A stretch of DNA of 64,000 bases, from contig JAPOIJ010000001.1 of NCBI GenBank assembly GCA_029979005.1, forward strand, positions 39,034 through 103,033. The letters are read 5' to 3'. The position numbers and the translations under genes were made by a program. The notes under the pieces are model-generated. The model made no database searches and was not told the origin of the DNA. It was given only the letters and a program-made list of their open reading frames with translations. Every line of letters begins with the position of its first letter. Position 1 is the first letter of the stretch. Shown here one piece after another: positions 51,058-64,000 of this stretch. Source of the stretch: Planctomycetota bacterium. GTDB taxonomy: Bacteria > Planctomycetota > Planctomycetia > Pirellulales > Pirellulaceae.

Positions 51058-52332
51058 ATGAATTCAAAAGCGAACCCGTCCAATGAAACAGACGCTACCA
51101 ACGGTGGATTGGATGGGGGTTCGCACGGACATATTGAACTGAAGTATCAGCCAGCAGTGCCAGTTCCCAAAGGCAAGCTTGCGGTTTGGCTGTTTTTGTC
51201 CACAGAAATTATGTTTTTCACGGCCTTGATTGGCACTTACATTGTTCTTCGTTTTGGGGCCCCTGAAGGCTCGTGGCCGACGCCTGGGGATGTACGCGTT
51301 CTTGAATGGCTAGGCGCCGTCAACACGTTTGTTTTGATTTGTTCCAGTGTGACGATTGTCTTTGGGATGGAGGCTGCCAAGCAAAACAAGGCAGGGAAAG
51401 CAAAGTCCTGGTTGTTCGGTACTTTTGTTCTCGGGTGTGTTTTTCTCGGGATCAAGGCGTATGAATATAATTCCAAGTTTGAGCACGGAATCCACCCCGG
51501 TACTCCCCGAAGTTTGCTTTATGATCGCGCCGACTTAAATTATCTTTCTGCTGTGAAGTCGAATTTGGATGCTGAAATTTTGAGTCTTGAAAAGGAAAAA
51601 ACGGCTCTGGTGTCTGAATCGGTTGTGCCTCACGATCATGATGTATTGGATACGCTTGTCCTGATTCGAGCTGGCCTGGTTCAGTGGACTCAACGGACGG
51701 TTGGAGAAGCTGAGAATCCAATGATGAGAGAGCTGGCTCTTGAAAGCCTGGCTCATCAGATTAATCCCCGCACTTCCAACCCACGGGTCGAAGCTTATCT
51801 GGCGAGCGAAAATGCTGATGTGAAAAATCAAATTGCCGAATTGATGGGTCAGCAGGAGACTGTGGAACAGGATGTCCGCGAGATGCAGGAGCGAATCGAT
51901 GTATTGTCGGAGCAGCTCAAAGCTGAACAGGACGATGCGAGGAAGCCGGATATTGAGAGTGAGTTGTCTGCAGCTACCGAAGCATCGAAGACGGCAGCGA
52001 CCAAGGCAACCGAGTTGGTTGATTTACTAACTCCGTTAGAAAATCGGGTTAGTGCTTATGAGCAGTTCAATGGACTTCATGAGGGGCTGAACGAGCATTT
52101 TCACCTGAAGCTTCCGATGGTCATTCCGAGTGGTAATACTTGGGCGAACACCTATTTCCTGATGACTGGTTTCCATGCTTTGCATGTATTGGGAGGGCTG
52201 GTCGCTTTTATGGTTTTGTTGATGTTGCGATTGGATCGTTCAAGGGCTGGTTTAATGGAGAATGTCGGTTTGTACTGGCATTTCGTCGACATCGTTTGGA
52301 TCTTTTTGTTTCCTTTGCTTTACTTATTTTGA
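51058..52332 (+). CDS. coxC: Cytochrome c oxidase subunit III with large central insert
   Basis: N-half [27 protein letters not shown]-half [25 protein letters not shown]...[19 protein letters not shown]; ~195-aa hydrophilic coiled-coil-like insert between. Confidence 0.92.
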
Positions 52333-52753: not shown

Positions 52754-54031
52754 GTGGCGAAAAGAAATATGTTTGCACGAGTTCGAGTATTTTTGTGGAT
52801 ATTAGTAGTAGTGTCTGCAGCGGTAGTGATCTACTTGCGGTCGGTCGACCGCCGGCCCGTTGAACGACCTCAGGCGGCGTCTATCGACAAAAATGAAAAC
52901 GACGGTACCAATCTTCAGCTAGACAGTAACGGTAGAGCGTTTGCGACGGTTCCATGGGAACACTTGCCAAGTGTTGATCGTTTCGAGCTGATCGATCAGG
53001 AGGGAAATAAATTTGACTCAGCTGACCTAGCGGGTCAGGCCTACGTGGTCAGTTTCTTTTTTGCGAGTTGTCCAACGTTTTGCATGGATTTAAATAAAGA
53101 AATAGACCGAGTGAATTCGGCTCTAAAAGGTACTGATATTCGCTTTTTGACACTGACCGTCGATCCTAAAAATGATACGCCTGAAGTTTTGAACAAATAT
53201 GCAGAAGGGTTTGGTGCATCGCCAGATCGTTGGGCGTTTCTTACCGGACAAAACTATCAATTAGTAGAGATCGGTGAGAACATGTTTAATGTTCCGGTGA
53301 ATCCAGAAACGCATACGGACAACATACTGCTGGTTGATAAATGGGGACGTTATCGCGATCGGTTCAAGTGGGATCAACCTTACGATATGAAGCGGTTCGT
53401 CAAGGTTGCGAAGGAAGTTGCAGCCGAAACGAAACCTCCGGTAGGAAAGAAAATTGATACGAGAAACGTTTTGGCAGGTGTCGAGCGGGAAGAGCTGAAT
53501 GATATCCGCTGGGTTCGTGACTTTTTTCTTACCGAACGGTCCGGCGAAAAGTTTTTCTCTCGGGATTTGACCGGCGAGGTTTGGATTGCGAACTTCTTCT
53601 TTAGCAACTGTCCCGGAGTGTGTAAGGCTCAGAATCAGTACCTGCGTAATTTACAAAAACGGCTTGGAGATGATTGCCCACGGATCGTCAGCATTACGAC
53701 TGATCCGGCTCGCGACACGGTGGAGCATCTTAGGGAATTTGCCGATACGCTAGAAGCGGACCCGGAAAATTGGTTGTTTTTGACCGGAAGTCCTGTGTTA
53801 ATCAAGAGAATTGGAAGTGAGTTTTTCAAGGCGGATTCGGGGGGCGAGCATCACTCATCACTTTTGTATGTCGTCGACCGGTGGGGGCAAGTTCGTGGGA
53901 AGTTTGATTGGGGAAATGCGGCTGACGAGGCGGAGATGATAAAGCTGGTCAAATTGCTGGAAAGTGAAGATCAGCCCAATCCGCGAGGTGGTGAAACGAA
54001 AGAAACAACGAAATCCGAGGGACAAGAATGA
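52754..54031 (+). CDS. Tandem SCO1/SenC copper-chaperone-like protein (two thioredoxin-fold domains)
   Basis: Domain 1 FFFASCPTFCMDLNKE...HTDNILLVDKWG; domain 2 FFFSNCPGVCKAQNQ...HHSSLLYVVDRWG; GTG start. Confidence 0.9.
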   Translation: MAKRNMFARVRVFLWILVVVSAAVVIYLRSVDRRPVERPQAASIDKNENDGTNLQLDSNGRAFATVPWEHLPSVDRFELIDQEGNKFDSADLAGQAYVVSFFFASCPTFCMDLNKEIDRVNSALKGTDIRFLTLTVDPKNDTPEVLNKYAEGFGASPDRWAFLTGQNYQLVEIGENMFNVPVNPETHTDNILLVDKWGRYRDRFKWDQPYDMKRFVKVAKEVAAETKPPVGKKIDTRNVLAGVEREELNDIRWVRDFFLTERSGEKFFSRDLTGEVWIANFFFSNCPGVCKAQNQYLRNLQKRLGDDCPRIVSITTDPARDTVEHLREFADTLEADPENWLFLTGSPVLIKRIGSEFFKADSGGEHHSSLLYVVDRWGQVRGKFDWGNAADEAEMIKLVKLLESEDQPNPRGGETKETTKSEGQE

Positions 54032-59436: not shown

Positions 59437-60597
59437 ATGTCAAATACATCTACAAAATCAAAACCGAAACCTAATTGGTATCCGCCGTGGGCCCCCAGGT
59501 TTTGGAACGGGATGCGTTTGGGTGACTATCTGCGGTTGATGAGAGAGAACCGCTTTAAGATCCATCCTTTCAAGTATCCAATGTTTGCTCTTGGCGGTGG
59601 ATGCGCCGTGATGAATTCAATTCTCGCTCAGGTTCAAGATGTCACGCACGGAAGTGTGATTGAGTCTGCTCAACTCAAAGATCCTCCCGTTTTTATTATT
59701 GGGCATTGGCGTTCCGGTACGACGTTGATGCATGAATTGATGTCTTTGGATTCGCGATTGGCGTTTCCAACAAATTTTGATGCGTTTATTCCCAATCATT
59801 TTCTTGCCTCACGGTTCTTTTTTTATCCGTTTTTGAAATTATTGATGCCTCGGCAACGACCGATGGACAATATGTCGATGGGAGTCGGGTCTCCTCAAGA
59901 AGATGATTTTGCATTGTGTGCTTATGGAGCTCCAACGCCCTACCGTAGAATTGCGTTTCCGAATCAACCGAATCGAGAGCACCTAAATCTCAAACTTTCT
60001 GATGCGGATCACGAGGTGCAGGAACGATTGCACGGGGCCATGGATTATTTCCTAAAGGCACTCACGGTCAGGTACGACTCGCAGTTGGTCCTGAAGTCAC
60101 CGCCTCACACCGGACGTCTGTCGCAGTTGGCCGACTGGTTTCCCGGGGCGAAGTTTGTACACATGGCGCGTCACCCGCACAAACTTGTGCCTTCTACGAT
60201 GAGGCTATGGAAGCTGTTAGATTCGCTTCAAGGATTTCAGATTCCAAGATACGATGATACGTGGCTCAAAAACTACATTTTTGAGTGTAAAGACTTAATG
60301 TATTCGGCCTACTTTAATCAGCGTGATTCGATTCCAAAAAATCAATTAGTTGAGGTTAACTTTGAAAATCTCACATCTCAGCCGATCGTCGAAATGGAAC
60401 GAGTCTACGACCAACTTGAGATGGATGGGTTTGCGGAACTAGAGCCGTCGCTGATGGAGTATTTCGAGCGCAAAAAGCACCATAAGAAGAACCCGTTTAC
60501 GCTTGAGTCTTCGCTTGAACTTGAGATTGATAATAATTGGCATCGCTACATGGATGAGTTTGGTTATTCAGATCCATCTGAAAGCGCGACGGACTGA
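59437..60597 (+). CDS. Sulfotransferase family protein
   Basis: PPVFIIGHWRSGTTLMHELMSLD PAPS P-loop; LKSPPHTGRLSQLADWFPGAKFVHMARHPHKLVPST. Confidence 0.9.
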   Translation: MSNTSTKSKPKPNWYPPWAPRFWNGMRLGDYLRLMRENRFKIHPFKYPMFALGGGCAVMNSILAQVQDVTHGSVIESAQLKDPPVFIIGHWRSGTTLMHELMSLDSRLAFPTNFDAFIPNHFLASRFFFYPFLKLLMPRQRPMDNMSMGVGSPQEDDFALCAYGAPTPYRRIAFPNQPNREHLNLKLSDADHEVQERLHGAMDYFLKALTVRYDSQLVLKSPPHTGRLSQLADWFPGAKFVHMARHPHKLVPSTMRLWKLLDSLQGFQIPRYDDTWLKNYIFECKDLMYSAYFNQRDSIPKNQLVEVNFENLTSQPIVEMERVYDQLEMDGFAELEPSLMEYFERKKHHKKNPFTLESSLELEIDNNWHRYMDEFGYSDPSESATD

Positions 60598-60640
60598 GGG
60601 ACGGTCACCTCTGTCGCTAGAGCGAATCGCCAAAAAGCGG

Positions 60641-61393
60641 TTATCTTAATCGGCTCAATTCTTGACGCCGCCGGTGAATCTGAGGATCACCGTTTTGCAT
60701 TCTCATTTCGTCCCGTAGTTGTTGGTCCGTCATTTTGAGACGATTTTCATGACTGATAAATTTCATGAAGAAGTCTAACGTCGAGGCAAACAAAAGAGTA
60801 ATTGCAACGTGCAGTGAAACACCGAGTACGAGGCCCAGCAGTTTGGCGGCCATTAAGTCAATTGGTAAATTCGCCAACTGAAAAAAACTAGCTTGTTGAA
60901 TCCAGATACTTGTTCCCCCTGCGATTCCTGCGAGGATCGTTTTCGGGATCCCAGTGATAATGGTAAAGAATCCACTAAAAGAGAAAATATTTCTCCATGC
61001 ACCAGATGCCAGTCGCGTTGGGTCGGGGGAAACTCGTCCAGGTAATAAGAGTGGGCCAGATTGAATCCAGTGGGAAACCACTCCTACGACAACGAGTAAG
61101 CACAACAGAGGTGCGAGGTGAGTGACGGCACCGAGGATAGTGAGTTGAATCTGTTCGGTGAATTCCTGATTGGACATGTTTAAGTTGCCCGGAGCTGATG
61201 TCCAAACTTCAGCGGTCCAGTTGCGAATCCAGTTGCTGACACCTCCAAGCAGATAGTAGGTAATTGCAATGGCACCAAGCATTTGGACGGCGGCAGCCAT
61301 TTCATGACTCTTGACAATGTCGCCATTCTGTCGGGCTTGTTGCCGTCGGCTTGGAGTCGCCTGATGAATGCGGTCTTCCATGGAATCACTCAT
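60641..61393 (-). CDS. flhB: Flagellar export protein FlhB, lacking the C-terminal cytoplasmic autocleavage domain
   Basis: RIHQATPSRRQQARQNGDIVKSHEMAAAVQMLGAI; C-terminus ...DEMRMQNGDPQIHRRRQELSRLR stop. Confidence 0.87.
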   Translation of the reverse strand: MSDSMEDRIHQATPSRRQQARQNGDIVKSHEMAAAVQMLGAIAITYYLLGGVSNWIRNWTAEVWTSAPGNLNMSNQEFTEQIQLTILGAVTHLAPLLCLLVVVGVVSHWIQSGPLLLPGRVSPDPTRLASGAWRNIFSFSGFFTIITGIPKTILAGIAGGTSIWIQQASFFQLANLPIDLMAAKLLGLVLGVSLHVAITLLFASTLDFFMKFISHENRLKMTDQQLRDEMRMQNGDPQIHRRRQELSRLR

Positions 61394-62162
61394 TCTTTGC
61401 GACCTCTTTGATCGACGATTGCATGGAATCTGTGATCATTGAAACGAAGTGATCCAAATCGTCTACGAATAACCAAACGCTACCGCCTAGGGTCAAAAAA
61501 ACCGCGAGAAACATCACGATAAGATTGGAACTGAGTCCCATGCCAAGCAGGTTCATTTGCGGGTAAGTTCGGCTGACGAACCCAATTATGATGGTCGCAA
61601 TTAGCATTGCGGCAACTGCTGGAGCAACGCCGCGAAGTGTTAAGATGAAACTCTGTTGCAAGAGGTTGACTAAAATGTCGCTTATTCGATTAGGGGCTAA
61701 TTCGGTACCAAGTGGGAGATGGATAAATGTATCAAGAAGCGCAGAAATAACTAATTCGGGACCGCCGGCGAGAGCAAATGCAGCCAGTGAAAGAATGGCG
61801 AACAACTGGCTGATGGTGGATGAGTTTTCGCCAGTTTGCGGATCTAGTGTATTGGAAATTTGAATTCCTGCCATTTGCCCGATAACGGTTCCGGCAAATT
61901 GAGCGGCCGAAAACATTATCATCACACCCAATCCTAAAAGTGAGCCAATAACAACTTCGCTAAAGATTGCCGAAAAAAGGCTCTCTAGATTGGAGGGTTC
62001 GAATTCGGGAAGTGTAATTAATGGAAATGCAGCCAAGCTTAAAAGCACGGCAGTTCCCAGTCGAATTTTTAACGGCACAGATCGGCTGCCAAAAATTGGT
62101 GCCGTCATCACCAATGCCGTAACCCTTGAGAATGCAAGAAAAAAAATAAATGCCGAATCCAT
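61386..62162 (-). CDS. fliR: Flagellar biosynthetic protein FliR
   Basis: FSRVTALVMTAPIFGSRSVPLKIRLGTAVLLSLAAFP; GQMAGIQISNTLDPQTGENSSTISQLF. Confidence 0.93.
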   Translation of the reverse strand: MDSAFIFFLAFSRVTALVMTAPIFGSRSVPLKIRLGTAVLLSLAAFPLITLPEFEPSNLESLFSAIFSEVVIGSLLGLGVMIMFSAAQFAGTVIGQMAGIQISNTLDPQTGENSSTISQLFAILSLAAFALAGGPELVISALLDTFIHLPLGTELAPNRISDILVNLLQQSFILTLRGVAPAVAAMLIATIIIGFVSRTYPQMNLLGMGLSSNLIVMFLAVFLTLGGSVWLFVDDLDHFVSMITDSMQSSIKEVAKNE

Positions 62163-62164
62163 TG

Positions 62165-62710
62165 TTACCCGCCTTTTTCAGTCCGGGGTACTTTGGAGAC
62201 GCGATAATGAGGAAGTAGGAACGGATTGTTAGATGCTTTCGATTGACCGTCAGGTTGGCGTGGGGTCGGTTGCTCGATCGATTGCTCAATTTTTTGAAAC
62301 TGACCGATGAGAGAAAAGATAGAATTGTCAGGCTTTGTGTTAGAAGCCCGCGTTGTTGCGATGGGTTCCGAAATCGTCTCGGTTGAGTCTGATTCAGTTT
62401 CTACTGCGGAGGCACTGGCGAAGAGTGTCGGTGGAGGAGAATTTGCCCATTGAGTCATTGGCTTTTCAAATGACAGCCGAGCGAAATCGGTCATGCGTTC
62501 CGTCAGCCAGGGGAGGCAGAGTCCAATTACGGCAATCAAAATGAGGATTTTGGGAACAAACGAAACCGTTTGATCCTGAACCTGGGTCATGGTTTGAATA
62601 ACGCCGATGATCAAGCCAATGAGCAGGCTAGTCACGAGAATTGGGCCTCCAACTAACATGCACGTTTTCATGGCTTCGCGACTGAAATCGATTGCATCTT
62701 CGGGGTTCAT
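62165..62710 (-). CDS. fliQ: Flagellar biosynthetic protein FliQ with ~97-aa C-terminal extension
   Basis: MNPEDAIDFSREAMKTCMLVGGPILVTSLLIGLIIGVIQTMTQVQDQTVSFVPKILILIAV. Confidence 0.92.
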   Translation of the reverse strand: MNPEDAIDFSREAMKTCMLVGGPILVTSLLIGLIIGVIQTMTQVQDQTVSFVPKILILIAVIGLCLPWLTERMTDFARLSFEKPMTQWANSPPPTLFASASAVETESDSTETISEPIATTRASNTKPDNSIFSLIGQFQKIEQSIEQPTPRQPDGQSKASNNPFLLPHYRVSKVPRTEKGG

Positions 62711-62794: not shown

Positions 62795-63784
62795 TCAGGT
62801 GATGGGGATGAAGCTTTGAAGTAACATTCCCACTACAAGGTTCCATCCATCCACCAGCACAAACAGTATTAATTTTAAAGGAAAGCTAACCATGGTCGGC
62901 GGCAACATTAGCATTCCCGTCGAGACGGTGACGGATGAGACAACTAGATCAAGAACTAAAAATGGAAGAAATATTTGAAAACCAAGTAAGAACGCTACCT
63001 TAAGTTCACTCACCATAAACGCAGGTAACAGGACATTGATTGGAACATCCTGTGCGCTGGTTGGTGCCGCTTCGGAGTATTCAGGGACGTATTTGTAAAA
63101 TACCGCAATCGATTCTGCGTTTCCGGCGGCTTCAATCTGTTTGGCCATGAATGTTTTCACAGGAGCAATTCCGCGGGTCCATGCCTCTTCCCAACTGATT
63201 CCATTTTCAGTTTGTGTATAAGGATCAATCGCTTCATTTTTTACTTCGTTCCAAACGGGTGTCATGATTAGCAAAGTCACGAACAGTGAGAGGGCCGTCA
63301 AAACTTGTGTCGGAGGTAGTTGTTGAGCCCCAAATGCTTGCTTGAGCAAGGTTAAAACCACAATGACTCTCACGTAGCAGGTGGTCATCAAGACAATCGC
63401 CGGGGCAAGACTCAAGGTTGCCAAGATTAAGGCAACTTTAATGGAGGAGGTTAAACCCTGAGGAGACGTTAGCTGGTCGGTCGGTGAAGACAGAAAAGAT
63501 GTGAGCGATGGTTGCGGGGAAGAAGGTGCGTGGTCAGGGGATGCGCTCTGTGACGGTGCCGTGGAGCCGGGCGGAATTGCTAATCCAAGTTGACTTCTAA
63601 CTTCACTGGGTAGCTGATCTGAAGGATTAGCGGTTTTCGATTCTTGTTCATCGAGCGAATCTGGGCTCGACAACTGCGCCGCGGCTGGTTGGTTGCCGAC
63701 CGATAGGCCAATGCAAAATAGAGCCAACGCGCAGTACCGAAGTAACGCATGCGCTGATGTTAATTTAGAACGTAAAGTGTGCAA
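62795..63784 (-). CDS. fliP: Flagellar biosynthetic protein FliP with extended N-terminal region
   Basis: TCYVRVIVVLTLLKQAFGAQQLPPTQVLTALSLFVTLLIMTPVWNEV; GFQIFLPFLVLDLVVSSVTVSTGMLMLPPTMVSFPLKLILFVLVDGWNLVVGML. Confidence 0.94.
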   Translation of the reverse strand: MHTLRSKLTSAHALLRYCALALFCIGLSVGNQPAAAQLSSPDSLDEQESKTANPSDQLPSEVRSQLGLAIPPGSTAPSQSASPDHAPSSPQPSLTSFLSSPTDQLTSPQGLTSSIKVALILATLSLAPAIVLMTTCYVRVIVVLTLLKQAFGAQQLPPTQVLTALSLFVTLLIMTPVWNEVKNEAIDPYTQTENGISWEEAWTRGIAPVKTFMAKQIEAAGNAESIAVFYKYVPEYSEAAPTSAQDVPINVLLPAFMVSELKVAFLLGFQIFLPFLVLDLVVSSVTVSTGMLMLPPTMVSFPLKLILFVLVDGWNLVVGMLLQSFIPIT

Positions 63785-63811: not shown

Positions 63812-63997
63812 TTAGGCTTCGAAAACTGAGTTGTTGGAATGGGCAGATAAGTCAAGAGTTCGCAGAATGCTGGCGAGATTGTTCTGTTGCTGAGCTTGTG
63901 ACTGAGATGGTTGAGGGGGAGCAGTGGCGGGGACCGGCGAGGGGGCGGGGGGGGGGCTCATTTTTGGTTGGGAAGGGGGGCGGCGCCCGCCGCCCAA
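63812..63997 (-). CDS. Possible C-terminus of FliO (Pro-rich linker), open at window end
   Basis: Position upstream of fliP; ...NLASILRTLDLSAHSNNSVFEA; frame still open at the window edge. Confidence 0.35.
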   Translation of the reverse strand: MGGGRRPPSQPKMSPPPAPSPVPATAPPQPSQSQAQQQNNLASILRTLDLSAHSNNSVFEA

Positions 63998-64000
63998 GGG

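Follow-up and report, generated by a model that had tools for sequence, protein, structure and literature searches.

The window, by which we mean the whole 64,000-nucleotide stretch of DNA analysed here, carries at one end part of an operon for a flagellar-type protein export gate whose FlhB stops before its cytoplasmic domain (FlhB_C). On the strength of comparative genomics we consider it probable that this is the original Pirellulales flagellar MS-ring and export gate, kept after the flagellum was lost and repurposed as a switchless, proton-driven gate. FlhB_C is held to be necessary for the docking of early substrates and for the hook-length switch. Its repeated removal, almost only where the structures that it serves are gone, is comparative evidence suggesting that its essential role lies in building axial structures and not in opening the gate.

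The shortened FlhB and its operon

Contig C300, from a draft genome of 5.06 Mb, ends with the window. The flhB of the window (60641..61393, minus strand) runs from an ATG start to a TAA stop and encodes 250 amino acids ending in ...DEMRMQNGDPQIHRRRQELSRLR, which comprise the transmembrane domain and linker helices but not FlhB_C with its NPT[H/E] self-cleavage site. The match to PF01312 covers profile positions 2-237 of 335 (E 7e-42; 144 bits, cut-off 24.4), the score against the TIGR00328 equivalog model is 123.7 bits, below the cut-off of 349, and the aligned span corresponds to residues 4-249 of Salmonella FlhB. The AlphaFold model of the protein (pLDDT 79) had a sole significant Foldseek match in the PDB, to FlhB (6s3l_K, probability 1.00), and the four-helix FlhB membrane domain is recognised by both Pfam and Foldseek. 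An earlier note on this DNA had described a membrane domain and linker followed by a stop, with nothing resembling NPTH beyond it and a sulfotransferase gene ending 43 bp away. All of this was confirmed: inspection of the sequence past the stop revealed neither FlhB_C nor NPTH, and the convergent sulfotransferase ORF lies at 59437-60597 on the plus strand. The note gave the ORF as 60601-61393, but 60601 is 40 bp past the stop, the true end being 60641.

The conserved linker helices occupy residues 221-250 (60644..60733, minus strand; MTDQQLRDEMRMQNGDPQIHRRRQELSRLR) and are the counterpart of the linker segment that passes through the pore of FlhA in a 2026 preprint, in which FlhB1-249 was built and charged linker clusters matter for motility (PMC13308203). 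In an alignment of 20 short FlhBs, 20 columns are invariant or nearly so, and 8 of these fall within residues 221-237. The window protein nearly coincides in span with FlhB1-249, that is, the clasp and linker of the preprint, and short FlhBs may therefore provide natural test cases for channel opening by the proton motor.

Also on the minus strand are fliR (61386..62162; 258 aa; PF01311, E 7e-50), fliQ (62165..62710; 181 aa, with residues 6-77 matching PF01313, E 1e-25, and about 100 aa added at the C terminus), fliP (62795..63784; 329 aa; PF00813, E 2e-66) and the 3' end of fliO (63812..64000). The last gene is broken by both contig ends, and its 5' part follows fliF at the end of contig C202, so that C202 carries the first half of the operon; the FliO of genome G017, which has a FliO Pfam match, matches both window 63812-64000 and L248:9607-10494. 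The window contig stops within a G-rich, proline-coding stretch of fliO, where its last letters disagree with the end of C202 that overlaps them and may be of low quality. In congeners the operon reads esterase, HATPase-like, FliF-like (YscJ_FliF domain), FliO, FliP, FliQ, FliR and short FlhB, colinear and with FlhB last. All the flagellar type III secretion partners, FliP, FliQ, FliR, FlhA, FliO and a FliF-type protein, are present; the flagellar fliP, fliQ, fliR and flhB models outscore SctR, SctS, SctT and SctU on the window gate proteins, and a Pfam scan of neighbouring proteins showed no secretin or needle protein. A defence role was rejected, as FlhB and three of its operon neighbours have no PADLOC match.

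The tail of about 100 aa on FliQ recurs in several genomes of the genus and is unusual, FliQ being ordinarily about 89 aa long. The C-terminal tail of FliF (LIEKDPDAAARVIESWIRDAA), at the position of the FliG-docking tail, is well conserved in the genus, and FliG follows FliF in six other genomes without rod and hook genes (hereafter rodless), outside the Mariniblastus genomes that have the short gate alone (short-only). In rodless G031 (L061:14070-14771) FliG keeps its N-terminal and middle domains with merely a trace of FliG_C; it adjoins FliF and a FliN-type protein, and an FlhF-like SRP54-type GTPase adjoins FlhA.

As judged by comparison of relatives, the truncation of FlhB is an old and maintained state, because the position of the stop, at codon 251, is common to seven species (that of the window and six Mariniblastus-like relatives), because pairwise dN/dS of FlhB among these close relatives is low, at 0.05-0.12, and because the sequence after the stop has no conservation beyond the closest pair of the seven species. 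For FliR the values are 0.04-0.08, and those of FliP and FliQ are less uniform, two comparisons there having paired the wrong partner. The public relatives are Mariniblastus and Pirellulaceae MAGs, and a short copy is present in 27 of 27 other genomes of the genus, with that of G009 cut by a contig end; the comparison of flhB length in close relatives, which the earlier note had proposed, thus found the short form genus-wide. An error of sequencing or assembly, or a recent nonsense mutation, might be suspected in a draft MAG whose contig ends 2.6 kb from flhB, but the chance of this is negligible when the same stop position is reached in seven species by different codons (TAA, TAG or TGA), with nothing homologous downstream and with the short form throughout the genus, and the shared stop together with purifying selection led us to rule it out.

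Two export gates in one genome

A second FlhB, full-length and carrying NPTH, is encoded on contig C303 of the window genome within an ordinary flagellar operon of motA/motB-like genes, flgB, flgC, fliE, fliF, fliG, fliH, fliI, fliJ, fliQ (94 aa), fliR and flhB, near which lie flgE, flgD and fliK; these gene names were read from sequence, and several were confirmed as homologues. The genome has two FliP, two FlhA (one intact on C109, the other split over C84 and C258) and a single FliI, which sits in the flagellar operon. Gene content indicates that the window operon is a second export gate beside a complete flagellar one, because the full NPTH FlhB, with its own FliP, FlhA and FliI, belongs to a separate and complete flagellar operon, and with a full NPTH gate in the genome the short gate is ruled out as the sole gate of this flagellum. 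The earlier note had set a second full-length flhB elsewhere in the genome against its own reading; one does exist, but since it is part of a separate, complete flagellar gate, the window gate need not build a flagellum and the truncation is not explained away.

The FlhA tree places the C84 copy with other NPTH-flagellum copies (support 100/100) and the C109 copy with the gates of congeners that have a short FlhB (100/100), the latter within the clade of native Pirellulales NPTE flagella. From this tree and the single-gate congeners we infer that the C109 FlhA is the partner of the window gate, the two loci being unlinked. A second flagellum from a different clade is confined to genomes in which the native gate is short or is too fragmented for its state to be told; this distribution is consistent with re-acquisition, the alternative being ancient duplication. 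In most flagellated Pirellulales (L008-L037 and others) the FlhB cleavage site is NPTE, not NPTH, and the NPTH copies of the order mostly form a separate flagellum clade.

The short FlhB might be supposed to serve the flagellum of this species, as an additional subunit of its gate or as a regulator, since both occur in one cell and a flagellum is found in only some genomes of the genus. We regard this as very unlikely, given that the flagellum has a full gate of its own, that 19 congeners have the short gate without rod or hook, and that the FlhA assigned to the short gate falls in a different clade from the flagellar FlhA.

A profile of FlhB_C alone matched, in the window genome, solely inside the second, full-length FlhB, and gave 0 matches in the 19 short-only congeners, which rules out relocation of the switch domain to an FlhX-like protein. 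Such stand-alone FlhB_C proteins are alike in that the two halves of FlhB are separated, but none is encoded in the window genome or its short-only relatives. Of the alternatives that the earlier note had offered, namely that the domain was lost or was encoded elsewhere, the first holds for these genomes, and its further suggestion, an export gate working without the usual switch, is very probably right. FlhB_C-only frames of 106-113 aa do occur in two distantly related planctomycetes that have few rod/hook matches (L237 in G221 and L238 in G270), and could be FlhX-like or fragments at contig edges.

Loss of FlhB_C in rodless planctomycetes

PF01312 was found in 118 of 118 Pirellulales genomes sampled and PF00460 (rod/hook) in 72 of them, absence of rod/hook genes here and of FliI below being judged by profile searches of draft MAGs. 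Within the genus, the nine genomes with a full-length FlhB are the same nine that have rod/hook genes, and the other 19 are short-only. Across the order, the motif was read in 67 rod-positive genomes and is NPT[H/E/Q] in 66 and NSTH in one; in the remaining five, four full-length copies were unread and one lay at a contig edge. Among the 46 rodless genomes, 45 were readable and 44 of these have lost the motif, 33 by truncation and 11 by decay (e.g., SPTE, NQAE, TPGG, DGKG), the exception being G034, a fragmented draft with NPTE. The association of motif and rod/hook genes has a Fisher p of 2e-31, with the four unread full-length copies counted as intact and relatedness ignored.

The loss of FlhB_C appears to be recurrent, and how often it arose independently is uncertain. 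The best tree of the FlhB membrane part has seven changes of motif state, two of them on strongly supported branches, and the FlhA tree gives at least three losses for the short label. In a test of correlated evolution, both of the two well-supported independent pairs agree (p 0.5, there being few such pairs). One pair lies within a single genus, G104 with rod/hook genes and NPTE versus rodless G088 with NQAE. Outside Pirellulales, 12 more genomes from six families have a short FlhB, all without rod/hook genes. Candidates beyond the planctomycetes were rejected: matches in Acidocella and other alphaproteobacteria are full-length with NPTH or NPSH intact, bar one contig fragment.

The gate might instead be a dying remnant of a lost flagellum, a view with which the decay of FlhB_C by steps, like that of the FlhA chaperone dimple, would agree, as would the lack of any FlhB match in 80 of 294 genomes of the phylum. 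We consider this improbable when dN/dS is 0.04-0.12 for FlhB and FliR, the gate is present in every sampled Pirellulales genome, and the stop position is kept between species. Rather, that all the sampled Pirellulales have the gate, flagellated or not, points to an unrecognised function, and because the same loss of FlhB_C recurs in rodless planctomycete genomes, the gate is probably reused for another job.

A possible function for the retained gate

The FliI-type ATPase (PF18269) is found in 0 of 19 short-only congeners, and FliI is retained in other rodless lineages. FlhA is full-length, with R85, R94, R147, R154, D158, D199, D208, D249 and Q254 conserved and N137 replaced by Q, these positions having been assigned to the proton path or the inner ring of charges (PMC13308203). 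The DPx[FY] motif of the FlhA chaperone dimple is unbroken, or almost so, in all the flagellar FlhA proteins that were examined and altered in nearly all short gates, with F459 being S in the window gate. The facts fit a gate from which the parts that order substrates may have been stripped (docking and switching by FlhB, chaperone docking by FlhA and, in Mariniblastus, the ATPase), with the parts that form and power the pore being kept.

We propose that rod, hook and filament were lost and the native flagellar gate retained. In the absence of a rod, hook or needle that must be measured, there would be one class of substrate or none, so that early-substrate docking and NPTH switching would become dispensable and FlhB_C would decay and then be deleted. 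The FlhA proton motor and the FlhB(1-249) linker would still open FliPQR inside the MS-ring using the proton motive force alone, and proton-driven flagellar export without the ATPase is documented (PMC7277350). The putative role would be export of some substrate or that of a membrane platform, and the actual flagellum of this species would be made by the second, NPTH-type system.

The main competing idea is that the FliF ring and FliPQR-FlhB-FlhA do not export at all and form a static platform in the inner membrane, such as one for envelope nanotubes (the CORE idea) or for a hat-like structure. Joint action of the export apparatus and nanotubes has been proposed (PMC7064499), and short-only relatives likewise have FliPQR, FlhB and FlhA without a flagellum. 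Hat-like structures need FlhA_C and are indifferent to deletion of FlhB_C; however, they persist without FliF and were imaged in flagellated species (PMC9380563). The combined absence of the ATPase, an intact chaperone-dimple motif and the switch would also suit a platform, as would the G031 FliG with little of its C-terminal domain left and, possibly, the conservation of the membrane proteins. Against this, few parts are better conserved than the residues of the proton path and the linker that transmits force, neither of which a passive platform would need, and we therefore think a static role unlikely.

The repurposed gate resembles the flagellar export gate (FliPQR-FlhB-FlhA) in its five gate families, FliO, FliF-like ring, FlhB fold and FlhA proton-path residues, and it appears to derive from the native Pirellulales flagellar gate. 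It differs in having no FlhB_C/NPTH and in having lost the chaperone-dimple phenylalanine, and the short-only relatives further lack rod, hook and FliI. In Lysobacter enzymogenes OH11 a gate without a flagellum has similarly taken on a new role, in twitching, and still exports a test flagellin, but FliI is required, a single species is concerned, and the available text describes no loss of the FlhB C-domain, which here is repeated across a phylum (PMC7277350). The secretin-less Myxococcales NF-T3SS is likewise derived from a flagellum, and its secretion is presumed to cross the inner membrane alone, but that lineage belongs to the NF-T3SS, whereas the gate described here is of flagellar type and, in Mariniblastus, without an ATPase (PMC9380563). 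Repurposed flagellar gates in non-flagellated bacteria are thus already known, from Lysobacter, and inner-membrane structures related to the flagellar gate and insensitive to FlhB_C have already been imaged (PMC9380563). Our literature search found no paper on truncated or non-flagellar FlhB in planctomycetes and no report of a repeated, maintained loss of FlhB_C tied to loss of axial structures. More tentatively, and with somewhat greater doubt than belief, we raise the idea that planctomycetes possess a third type III-family machine besides flagella and injectisomes, a ring and gate with no rod, needle, ATPase or switch, which would be driven solely by the proton motor of FlhA, would have evolved several times from flagella and would have a conserved job in non-flagellated cells.

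Several further observations were made. Frames of about 490-580 aa that match only the C-terminal half of FlhA (roughly profile positions 310-656) occur beside a normal FlhA (G045:C10:357603-358631, G070:C38:36083-37069, G047:C111:189-1187 and G076:C1:2744771-2745808) and are possible stand-alone FlhA_C paralogues. Elsewhere in the window, by eye, a single ORF at 52754-54031 apparently encodes two tandem SCO1-like domains (two CxxxC motifs), and 51058-52332 encodes a protein resembling cytochrome oxidase subunit III, into which a long coiled-coil-like segment is inserted.
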